A stretch of DNA of 64,000 nucleotides from Cylindrotheca closterium (taxonomy: Eukaryota; Bacillariophyta; Bacillariophyceae; Bacillariales; Bacillariaceae). This document shows, piece by piece, positions 6,912 through 15,294 of the stretch. The stretch spans positions 64,981 to 128,980 of the forward strand of contig CAKOGP040001736.1 of NCBI GenBank assembly GCA_933822405.4, in the 5' to 3' direction. Each line of letters begins with the position of its first letter. Within the stretch, counting starts at the first letter, position 1. A program made the translations under genes and the position numbers. Under the pieces are notes generated by a model. It ran no database searches. It saw nothing but the letters and a program-made list of their open reading frames with translations, and was not told where the DNA came from.

Positions 6912-9448
6912 ATGAGAAGCTTTCAGTGCTATGCGACAATTCTGACTCTTTTCCTAGCTGTGGTGCAAGGACAAAAGTGTGATTCCAACGGAGTATGCGA
7001 CAAGTTGCCCCAATGCACCAAATGGAAAGAAAACGGTACTTGTGAGCGCAACAAGGCAAGTCGAAGCCTCGTCATGTTTTCTTGAAGACGATAGAATGAT
7101 GGGTTAGATAGTATACGGAGAGTTTGATTGGCATCATGGATTGATTCACTCGGCAGTCTAACCATCATGTTTTCTGTCATTTTCTTTTTGCTCACAGGCT
7201 TACATGCAAGAGCAATGCCCCGTTTCGTGCAAGGAAGATGACTGCAAGGATCTTCATGTGAGATGTCCCGCTTGGTCCCAGATTAAGGACAACTGTGTCG
7301 ATAATCCTGATATGCGAAAGTACTGTGGAAAGAGCTGCAATGCTTGCGAGGAACAAGCAGCTGCCAATGCGACTGGCTCGGATGAGGATGACGAGGATGT
7401 GATGCCATGTGTGGACGAACATACGAACTGTCGCTATTGGGCAGATAAAGGTTCGTCAAGACGCAATTGTGTTGAGTTGAAGTCATGATCATGAAACAAA
7501 CTAATTCGAATGAATCACCGGCCCGTGGTCATTTGTCATTATTTTCAGGCGAATGGTAAGAATTGAAGATTGACAACCAATCTGCTGGTCGGAATGCCTG
7601 TTCTAATTGGCTTGCTGCTTTTCTTCTACCTTAGTGTTGCGAATCCTTCAGTAAGTAAAACAACTTGATATGACTCAGATGAGCGTCGATGTTGTGACTA
7701 CGAGAAGAAATCTAATTTTGATGGTTATTGTAGTGTAAGTGACAACCTGACAAGGAGATTGGTCAGTTCCTATCTTTGCTAATCAGAGTCTGTTTGCCAT
7801 GCGCTACGATGATATATAGGGATGAATGAGAATTGTGCTAGAAGTTGCACGGCATGTGAAAAGATTAAGCAACGAAAGACAAAGGAGTACCCTGCCTCAA
7901 CAGAGGAGTTGGCAGTTGATACCGATGTGATTTTGGAGGAATCGGCCAGCTTTGGAGAAAAGCAAGTGGCGGATGGCGGGGAACGTCGACAGACGATTGC
8001 TCGAGTCAAGGCAACCATTGACTATATGGCGTCAGAGAAATTTACAAAACTATCGCCCGCAATCAAGGAATCTTGCATGAATCGGAATGAACTTTGTGCG
8101 TTCTGGGCCATCTTGGGTAAGGATCATTGGTAGAATTGTGTGTGCATTACTAGCTCCATTCTCCGAGATCCACTAATTGCTATCATTACAGGTGAATGCG
8201 AAAAAAATGAGGCGTACATGGTCATCCAGTGTGCCCCATCGTGTTATTCATGTCATCTCATCGAGTAAGTTCATGTGGAGCCAGCTTGTGTTTTGCCGCA
8301 CCCTTCATTGAGTCCACCTCACGTTGCTGGGATCTTCATATGGCACTTGCAGTATTAGTGCGCGTTGTCCCGTGGATGCCGATGCTGTCCCTGGGCTTGA
8401 ACCCGGAACACTGAACAAAATGTTTGAACGAATTGTGGAAACCGCACCGGGAAATCGTACTTTGACGGACGAGGAACGCGAAGAACTGAAGCAAAATGAA
8501 ATGACAGAATACACCGTCGAAGTAATCTCGCGTCCAAGTGACGAACCTTCGACCGAAGTCAGTGCCAAGAATGACAAGCTACCTCCATGGGTGGTTGTGT
8601 TTGAAAATTTTATATCGGACGAAGAGTGCGACGAAATGATCCAATTGGGGTACAAGCATGAATACAAGCGAAGTGCTGACGTTGGCAAGCTCAAATTTGA
8701 CGGGACACACGAGAGTATCGAGAATAGCCGACGTACTTCAGAAAATGCTTGGTGCTCTGGGCATTTGGGGTGCCGAAACGCAACCGTTCCAACCAGATTG
8801 CACAATCGAATGTCAAAAGTACTTGATATCCCCGCTGATAATGGAGAAGACATGCAGATTCTGAAGTATGAAAAGGGTCAATTCTATCGGACACATCATG
8901 TATGTACCAATATGCTTGCTTGCACATCTATGATTATCTTCAGCTGACACTTCTCTTTTTTGCTTCCTTGGACTAGGATTTCATCGAACATCAAGTGGAT
9001 CGGCCATGTGGACCGAGGATTCTAACATTCTTGTAAGTCTTCGAGATGTCTAGAGGAGTTTGTTGTTTTCCAATCTCACAGACTTTACTCATTTTTGAAT
9101 TCTGCCTTTCTCAGCCTCTATTTGAGTGATGTCGAAGAAGGGTAAGTTAGTTATCAAACAAATTGGGCAGAGAGCTGATTCATTCATTCATTCATTCGTT
9201 TTGTCCTCTAACCTTATTCGTTCCAACAATACAGTGGTGGTACCAACTTTCCAGATCTAGGCATCACCGTTGAACCAAAGAAGGGACGAGCCTTGCTTTG
9301 GCCATCAGTCTATGACTCGAATCCAAAGAAGGATGATCCTCGAATGAGACATCAAGCTCTTCCAGTGAAAGAAGGAACGAAGTTTGCGGCCAATAGCTGG
9401 ATTCACCTCTATGACTACCAGGCGGCCCAAAAGAAGGGATGTCACTAA
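6912..9448 (+). CDS. ShKT-domain prolyl 4-hydroxylase, 11 exons including micro-exons of 7, 16 and 1 nt
   Basis: Secreted 2-oxoglutarate/Fe(II) prolyl 4-hydroxylase of 544 residues. Exons: 6912-7055, 7198-7450, 7549-7555, 7635-7650, 7734, 7820-8116, 8192-8264, 8353-8899, 8977-9032, 9115-9141, 9235-9448; their summed length (1635) is divisible by three and every join is in phase. The start gives a signal peptide (ATILTLFLAVVQGQ). Four ShKT-like six-Cys units follow, then the catalytic domain with HxD (YRTHHDF), EEGGGTNFP, and the distal His and Lys (RHQALPV, TKFAANSWIH). It should hydroxylate prolines of secretory or wall proteins in the ER. Intron 1 uses a GC donor (AAG|GCAAGT). The single-base exon T at 7734 completes TGG in ANPSWMNENC; without it a TGA follows at once. 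Related genes lie at 12219 and 13966, but they have one ShKT unit and one intron. Confidence 0.85.
7734..7734 (+). other. Putative single-nucleotide exon
   Basis: One T sits between an acceptor (GGTTATTGTAG) and a donor (GTAAGT). Flanking introns are 7651-7733 (83 bp) and 7735-7819 (85 bp), the usual size here. It joins the phase-0 end of exon 4 (CCT TCA) to exon 6 (GG ATG AAT), making TGG ATG AAT, so the ShKT domain reads GECVANPSWMNENCARSC. The paralogues read GECENNPGYMHVNCAPVC in one exon, with Tyr at the same place. Confidence 0.7.
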
Positions 9449-12218: not shown

Positions 12219-13571
12219 ATGAAATCTTTTGCACTACTCCTATCTTCTACTTTGCTCGTTGGTACAGTCCACGCTGGTGCCATTGACACAACCACGAGGA
12301 ATGGCAATTGTGTCCTCAAAAGCACCAACGATGCTCTGGAAGAAAACGCCTCGTCAGACTCTCAAACAAATGATACTACCTGCATAATAACTGCTGATGA
12401 TGATGATTCTGAAGTCATTTCAGAAGCCAGCTATTCAGGCGTGACGGCTCCAGCACCCAAAGAATTCGATGAGTTTGGTTCAGATCTAGGAGTGGAACAG
12501 TCCATTGATTCAACTCGAGCCAAGGAATGTCTTGCGACCATTGAGAGTGCACGAGAGTACATCACCACCGAGGTCATGGTCGATGAGAAATATGCAAAGA
12601 CGAGGGACCTATGCAAGAATCAGCACAAAGATTGTACTTTATGGAGTGTCCTAGGTGAATGCGAAAACAATCCCGGATACATGCATGTCAACTGTGCTCC
12701 TGTATGCCAATCTTGTGAGGTGAGTTTTCAAAGGTTTCTCAAGCATCATTCATCCATCCAGTATTTGTATTACATTAGGTGACTGACCAATTTTCATCTT
12801 TTTCGGCTATAGATGCTCCATATCGAAACAAGATGTCCTTTGGATCCTAATGCCGTGGATGCCATGTATCCAGGAGACCTTTCCAAAATGTTTGAAAGAA
12901 TTCTCAGCTCGCCTGAGTACAAACAGTTTGAGCCAGTGGTTGTATCGAGACCACCAGAAGGGCCATGGATGATGCAATTCGACAACATTTTGTCGGAAGC
13001 TGAAGCCCAAAGACTCATTGAATTGGGAGGAGAACAAGGATACGAAAGATCTTCGGATGTTGGAAAGCAAAAGAAGGATGGAACCCACGAGAATTACGTC
13101 AATGGGGGGAGAACGTCCACCAACGCATGGTGTGTCGGAGACTGCTACGAAGATCCCATTGCACAAGTCGTGATGGGAAGAATAGAAAACATTACCGGCA
13201 TTCCGGAAACCAACTCGGAGAACTTGCAACTGCTTCGGTATGAACACGACCAGTTCTACCAAGTCCACAGCGACTACATTCCATACCACACCGAACGGCC
13301 TTGCGGTGTTCGAATTTTGACGTTTTACATGTATTTGAACGAAGTGGAGGAAGGTGGCGGTACAAACTTTCCAAGAGTCAGAAATGTAACAGTGACCCCA
13401 AAGAGAGGCAGAGCCGTCTTGTGGCCAAGTGTGCATGATAAGGATCCAAACGCACAGGATTCTCGAACGAATCATCAGGCTTTGCCTGTCATCAAGGGCA
13501 TCAAGTATGGTGCCAATGCATGGATTCATCAACGTGACTTCAAGGGACCGAATAACAGAGGGTGTAACTAG
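12219..13571 (+). CDS. ShKT-domain prolyl 4-hydroxylase, tandem copy 1
   Basis: Two exons, 12219-12719 and 12813-13571, joined in phase 0 (donor GAG|GTGAGT, acceptor GCTATAG), giving 419 residues. The start gives a signal peptide (SFALLLSSTLLVGTVHAGA). An acidic Thr/Asn-rich segment precedes a single ShKT unit (CKNQHKDCTLWSVLGECENN, then PGYMHVNCAPVCQSC). The catalytic domain keeps the iron ligands HxD (QVHSDYIPYH) and distal His (TNHQALPVIKG) and the 2-oxoglutarate Lys (IKYGANAWIH). Expected role: hydroxylation of prolines in secreted or wall glycoproteins in the ER. Exon 2, the intron and the upstream leader are almost the same as in the copy at 13966; the two diverge mainly in the first exon and after about 13285. 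Confidence 0.9.
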
Positions 13572-13965: not shown

Positions 13966-15294
13966 ATGAAATTGTTTGCACCACTCCTATCCTCTGCTTT
14001 ACTTGTTGGTACAGCCCACGCTGGTGCCATCGACACGGCCACGAGGAATGCTGTTTTCAAGAGCAACGATGCTCTCGACGACGTCGACACACAGACAAAT
14101 GATACCTGCATCACTGCCGATGATGATTCTGAAGTCATTTCAGAAGCCAGCTATTCAGGCGTGGCGGCTCCAGCACCCAAAGAATATGATGAGCTTGGCT
14201 CTGATTTGGGCGTGGAACAATCCATTGATGCAATTCGAGCCAAGGAATGTCTTGCGACCATTGAGAGTGCAAGAAAATATGTTGCCAACGAGGTGATGGT
14301 CGATGAGAAATACGCAAAGACGAGGGACCTATGCAAGAATCAGCACAAAGATTGTACTTTCTGGAGTGTCTTAGGAGAATGCGAAAACAATCCCGGATAC
14401 ATGCATGTCAACTGTGCTCCTGTATGCCAATCTTGTGAGGTGAGTTTTAAGAAAAGGTTTCTCAAGCATCATTCATCCATCCAGTATTTGTATCACATTA
14501 GGTGACTGACCAATTTTCATCTTTTTCGCATATAGATGCTCCATATCGAAACAAGATGTCCTTTGGATCCCAATGCCGTGGATGCCATGTATCCAGGAGA
14601 CCTTTCCAAAATGTTTGAAAGAATTCTCAGCTCGCCTGAGTACAAACAGTTTGAGCCAGTGGTTGTATCGAGACCACCAGAAGGGCCATGGATGATGCAA
14701 TTCGACAACATTTTGTCGGAAGCTGAAGCCCAAAGACTCATTGAATTGGGAGGAGAACAAGGATACGAAAGATCTTCGGATGTTGGAAAGCAAAAGAAGG
14801 ATGGAACCCACGAGAATTACGTCAATGGGGGGAGAACGTCCACCAACGCATGGTGTGTCGGAGACTGCTACGAAGATCCCATTGCACAAGTCGTGATGGG
14901 AAGAATAGAAAACATTACCGGCATTCCGGAAACCAACTCGGAGAACTTGCAACTGCTTCGGTATGAACACGACCAGTTCTACCAAGTCCACAGCGACTAC
15001 ATTCCATACAACCTACAACGGCCATGCGGTGTTCGAATTTTGACGTTTTACATGTATCTGAACGAAGTCGAGGAAGGAGGCGGTACAAACTTTCCACATG
15101 TCAACAATGTAACAGTGACTCCAAAAAGAGGCAGAGCCGTCTTGTGGCCAAGTGTACATGATAAGGATCCAAACAAGAAGGATTCTCGAACTGATCACCA
15201 GGCTTTGCCTGTCATCAAGGGCGTCAAGTATGGTGCCAATGCATGGATTCATCAACGTGACTTCAAGGGCCCGAATAGTAGAGGGTGCGCCTAA
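13966..15294 (+). CDS. ShKT-domain prolyl 4-hydroxylase, tandem copy 2
   Basis: Two exons, 13966-14439 and 14536-15294 (phase 0, donor GAG|GTGAGT, acceptor CATATAG), 410 residues. Domain order is signal peptide (FAPLLSSALLVGTAHAGA), acidic spacer, one ShKT unit (CTFWSVLGECENNPGYM), and a 2-oxoglutarate/Fe(II) prolyl 4-hydroxylase domain with QVHSDY, DHQALPVIKG and VKYGANAWIH. The first ~465 bases of exon 2 differ from copy 1 by a single base on my reading (C for T in the Asn codon near 14570), and the introns are nearly identical too. Exon 1 is more diverged and 27 bases shorter. This is a recent tandem duplication or gene conversion. Both copies keep all catalytic residues. Confidence 0.9.

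Follow-up and report, generated by a model that had tools for sequence, protein, structure and literature searches.

A one-nucleotide exon has been proven experimentally in APC11 of land plants (Guo and Liu 2015, PMC4674806; PMC8831610). VPS55 (PMC8831610) and CYP621A of Fusarium (PMC12940212) are also published, and the single established plant case counted by the initial annotation of the present locus is thus outdated. One-base exons are described for mitochondria as well, in placozoan cox1 (PMC5436844), and the term also occurs in PMC12308204. The APC11 exon is a single coding nucleotide between two introns which is absent from annotations, and intron definition with sequential removal was proposed for it in Arabidopsis (PMC4674806). 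The 1-nt exon of VPS55 has a GTRAGT donor and was missed by annotation; it is conserved over land plants, was documented by RNA-seq and RT-PCR, and occurs in alternative forms (PMC8831610). Plant RNA-seq indicates consecutive removal of the introns around microexons, and rice Os08t0562700 has adjacent microexons of 5 and 12 nt (PMC8831610). The CYP621A exon, a G (AGGGT), was found in 24 aligned genes and in SRA reads of two species; it was spotted from unjoinable exon phases inside a conserved motif, and the combined intron was about twice the normal length (PMC12940212).

A window of 64,000 nt of the Cylindrotheca closterium genome was analyzed. From the sequence, the T at position 7734 is read as a constitutive one-nucleotide exon, the fifth of 11, in a functional prolyl 4-hydroxylase-like gene, where it ends an array of microexons of 7, 16 and 1 nt; the probability of this reading is estimated at about 0.87. 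The candidate combines an open frame, splice-like sites, branch-like motifs and a match to the transcript-derived protein P0002, and is predicted to be in use in C. closterium. It resembles APC11 in being a single coding nucleotide between two introns that annotation lacks, VPS55 in its length, donor and absence from annotation, and CYP621A in the unjoinable phases within a conserved motif and the doubled combined intron. APC11 differs in being proven experimentally, in another gene and another lineage, and VPS55 in its conservation, its transcript evidence and its alternative forms. Unlike the G of CYP621A, the present base is a T, is known from one genome's sequence and has two more microexons directly upstream, so that three stand in a row where the rice gene has two. 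T7734 most likely adds to the class of one-nucleotide exons, and would be its first diatom member known within a literature search (diatom, algae, stramenopile) that took in few subscription papers and returned no such exon for diatoms. The known range of nuclear exons of this length, land plants and Fusarium, would then also take in a diatom. Placed right after two microexons, with splice sites one base apart, the exon would be a demanding case for the spliceosome.

Table 1. Features of the predicted gene and of two rival splice sites (positions in the window; / marks an exon border; ^ joins the last and first bases of two exons)
Feature	Position	Strand	Length (nt)	Following intron (nt)	Remarks
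Prolyl 4-hydroxylase-like gene	6912..9448	+			open joined model, 11 coding exons; four ShK stretches and a 2OG-Fe(II) oxygenase domain
Exon 1	6912..7055	+	144	142	intron border GC-AG at 7056, AAG/GCAAGT
Exon 2	7198..7450	+	253	98	ends AAAG, phase 1, then unusual donor GTTCGT at 7451
Exon 3	7549..7555	+	7	79	microexon GCGAATG, part of G-E-C; ATTTTCAG/GCGAATG/GTAAGA; residues matched in P0002
Exon 4	7635..7650	+	16	83	microexon TGTTGCGAATCCTTCA, C-V-A-N-P-S; ACCTTAG/.../GTAAGT; P0002 residues match except V/I
Intron 4	7651..7733	+	83		GTAAGT...TTGTAG; CTAAT branch-like motif, A 18 nt from 3' end
Exon 5 (candidate)	7734..7734	+	1	85	single T, first base of Trp codon T/GG; W identical in P0002
Intron 5	7735..7819	+	85		GTAAGT...ATATAG; CTAAT branch-like motif, A 37 nt from 3' end
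Exon 6	7820..8116	+	297	75	starts GG/ATGAATGAGAATTGT
Exon 7	8192..8264	+	73	88	
Exon 8	8353..8899	+	547	77	
Exon 9	8977..9032	+	56	82	
Exon 10	9115..9141	+	27	93	further microexon; flanking introns of 82 and 93 nt
Exon 11	9235..9448	+	214		
Rival donor GTAAAA	7655..7660	+			7654^7820 gives NPSVRMNENC; score 3.71, 12th percentile
Rival acceptor AG	7829..7830	+			7650^7831 gives NPSNCARSC; score 3.36, 10th percentile

The joined model with T7734 is 1635 nt long (544 codons and a stop, no internal stops). Its product scored above the Pfam cut-offs for ShK (88.7 bits in 4 stretches, cut-off 20.9) and 2OG-FeII_Oxy_3 (60.1 bits, cut-off 27), and is probably a ShK-domain prolyl 4-hydroxylase-like protein. 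The annotated C. closterium protein P0001 matched 91% of the model at 98% identity. A second gene copy was not seen in the C. closterium genome, where long matches elsewhere were 43-50% identical and short ones reached at most 62% identity over 58 residues.

Exon 4 ends ...CCTTCA at 7650 and exon 6 starts GGATGAATG at 7820; between them T7734 stands in the context TTATTGTAG/T/GTAAGT. The break in frame between these exons was correctly recognized by the initial annotation: it is mended by T7734, and a stop arises at codon 142 when only that base is dropped. The back-to-back sites TTGTAG/T/GTAAGT and the normal size of the two introns were likewise confirmed, the other introns of the gene being 75-98 nt long with one of 142. 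The three microexons together encode ECVANPSW, part of the third ShK domain, and the cDNA predicted with all of them included would read ...GAATGTGTTGCGAATCCTTCATGGATGAAT. Among their eight inclusion patterns only all-in and all-out were open, the other six stopping at codons 136-142, and the full ShK domain was open only with all three present, T7734 included. The codon xGG is completed to Trp by T only. The base is not strictly needed for the frame, as had been claimed, since skipping all three microexons, the donor at 7655 and the acceptor at 7830 also give open frames.

Splice sites were scored with a matrix built from 67 uncurated introns, self-predicted and no longer than 200 nt, from which the target gene had been removed by sequence. 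The donors at 7651 and 7735 scored 6.94 (49th percentile) and 9.69 (76th percentile), the acceptors at 7733 and 7819 scored 4.62 (only the 30th percentile) and 5.91 (54th percentile). Donor 7735 was the strongest between 7557 and 7839 with an earlier 68-intron matrix, and its ranking was the same with the 67 introns. By composite splice score T7734 ranked first among the 377 AG-N-GT sites on both strands of the window. A point against it is the acceptor at 7786, which outscored the one at 7733 (6.27 versus 4.62). That acceptor lies only 4 nt past the A of a CTAAT motif and is used by no open single join, and the intron after an exon beginning there could be no longer than 32 nt. CTAAY was present in 7 of the gene's 10 introns, where shuffled sequences predict 1.77, and the 1635 nt of coding sequence contained it once; the distances from A to 3' end in introns 4 and 5 fall within the 15-44 nt of the five other introns with the motif.

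The pattern TYNYAGNGTAAGT was found at 42 sites on both strands of the 47.6-Mb genome, that of T7734 included, which corresponds to a chance rate of about 7.5e-5 per 169 nt of one strand; the reversed control pattern gave 195 sites, and on that basis the rate is about 3.5e-4 per 169 nt. The deficit against the backward pattern (42 versus 195, base composition uncontrolled) may mean that accidental back-to-back splice sites are avoided. No clear second one-nucleotide exon emerged from coding scores in the surroundings of the 42 sites, a test to which microexon neighbours are invisible and in which the target itself yielded nothing.

Single joins across the interval 7651-7819 were scanned with donors at 7640-7799, acceptors at 7680-7889 and a minimum intron length of 45 nt. 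Seven were open and in frame, and by eye only 7654^7820 and 7650^7831 retained most of the ShK domain. The earlier claim that no other AG gives an open join held for acceptors inside the interval paired with the donor at 7651, and failed for 7654^7820, 7650^7831 and 7450^7820, which are open. The interval contains three AG-N-GT sites; use of 7684 or 7787 would shorten one intron to 33 or 32 nt, respectively, and only 7734 leaves more than 33 nt on both sides. When about 40 nt or more was required for each flanking intron, 15 internal exons of length 1 mod 3 (T7734 included) joined TCA to GGATGAAT without a stop, and T7734 alone among them gave exactly SWMN. The rival spliced forms would read ...TCAGTAAGGATG, ...TCAAATTGT or ...AAAGGGATGAAT. 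The ShK segment scored 39.0 bits (Pfam) with T7734, 34.0 with 7654^7820, 24.3 with 7650^7831 and 21.0 with 7450^7820. No in-frame alternative was thus equally good, the rivals being lower on sites and domain; this is a ranking and not an exclusion.

P0002, a protein derived from an MMETSP transcript, was 83% identical to the model over 100% of its length, an identity which suggests a close relative as its source. It reads GECIANPSWMNQNC where the model has GECVANPSWMNENC, with the same W and the same spacing, and its longer stretch CVDENENCRFWADKGECIANPSWMNQNCARSC agrees with the model column for column. P0002 supports the predicted protein product and not the one-base exon itself. With this W, its spacing and a branch-like motif in each half of the interval, the one-nucleotide exon proposed initially is the best-supported gene model.

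An alignment was made of 123 proteins, namely the best 120 of 823 matches and P0121-P0123; P0001 was set aside, leaving 122. Residues on both sides of the site were present in 106 of these 122, and 105 of the 106 had a single residue ahead of the M column. Among the matches listed this residue was always aromatic (90 Y, 8 F and 7 W), and M followed in the next column in 105 homologues. Seven aligned proteins start exactly at that M (P0003, P0060, P0061 of C. fusiformis, P0072, P0080, P0091 and P0121), as do P0124 and P0125. An intron ending directly ahead of the M would lead to such starts, which as choices of a gene finder are weak evidence. In P0122, an open reading frame that continues past one or more later introns (between AILG and ECENNEAYM), MNENC is preceded by YDVG. 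Its Gly in place of Trp implies that the codon before ATG starts there with G, as it does after an AG acceptor in the window, and not with the T of Trp. The protein starts and P0122 support an intron boundary shared with relatives, not yet a shared one-base exon.

P0121-P0125 were the five proteins obtained in searches with pieces of 202 aa (one Cys missing near its start, judged harmless) and 107 aa; four of them begin at an intron position or run into one, and the fifth is a ShK protein of 34% identity. A DNA scan of viral_contigs gave 85 relatives (80 loci kept, 22-31% identical), which were left aside, and no diatom orthologue, and a scan of genome_contigs gave 13 pattern matches with no relatives among them.

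Joint skipping of the three microexons (7450^7820) as the main product, with an mRNA short of 24 nt and a protein short of ECVANPSW, is improbable. The join keeps the frame, and P0001 has exactly this form, reading WADKGMNENC. The eight residues are present in the transcript-derived P0002, however, and the corresponding stretch is found in 105 of the 106 aligned homologues among the matches listed. Skipping also loses a ShK cysteine and brings the segment from 39.0 bits down almost to the cut-off of 20.9, and ECVANPS between splice-like sites would hardly be chance intron sequence. Gene finders skip exons so small, and a small self-trained one likewise left out the microexons. The comparison suggests that the public C. 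closterium gene model lacks eight conserved residues, so such exons may escape gene finders in other diatom genes too.

A single intron from 7655 to 7819, with the AG-T-GT as a decoy, is very unlikely. The join is open and in frame, but a better donor lies 4 nt from its own low-scoring one, and VR is put in place of the one aromatic residue, at odds with 105 of 106 homologues among the matches listed. The ShK score is lower, and this reading has no explanation for the acceptor and the strong donor that flank the T, nor for the first branch-like motif. Just as little likelihood is given to an assembly that misses one T after 7650, in which a single 169-nt intron would follow ...TCAT and the AG-T-GT would be coincidental. 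Single-base assembly errors do occur, and P0001, apparently from the same contig as the window, provides no independent read of the base. Against this, the site is not in a homopolymer, and the explanation needs an error together with a motif found 42 times in 47.6 Mb and two branch-like motifs; loss of a T at 7820 is less likely, P0122 having Gly before MNENC. A single intron from 7651 to 7830, open and in frame as it is, can practically be dismissed, since it uses an acceptor in the 10th percentile, loses WMNE and with it the aromatic-M pair kept by homologues, and lowers the ShK score to 24.3 bits.

With T7734 as an exon, the GT-AG introns 4 and 5 would be short enough for recognition by intron definition. 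They would be removed sequentially, one after the other, because their 3' and 5' splice sites are one base apart, and full splicing complexes could presumably not hold both introns simultaneously. With intron 4 removed first, intron 5 would still have a strong donor, ...CAT/GTAAGT (CATGTAAGT, score 8.84). Since the frame survives only if the three microexons are all included or all skipped, the one-base exon might serve as a frame check by which the cell switches between an intact and a disabled form of the third ShK domain, partial splicing leading to early stops. That the array is a conserved all-or-none Cylindrotheca module of this kind is doubtful.

A recently inserted introner element was considered and rejected, as the 169-nt stretch 7651-7819 matched only itself in a genome search and introns 4 and 5 were not similar at p < 0.05 in pairwise alignment. 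One of the 45 intron pairs of the gene (introns 7 and 8) fell below p 0.05, about the chance level. A phase-1 G/EC intron lies in the same place in the third and fourth ShK domains (7450/7549 and 8116/8192); because position and phase are the same in both, it may predate the duplication of the domain. Tandem prolyl 4-hydroxylase-like paralogues lie at 12219-13571 and 13966-15294, with one intron each by eye. The segment NPGYMHVNC, earlier quoted from the paralogues, does occur in this tandem. The two genes share long near-identical stretches, which suggests recent duplication or gene conversion.
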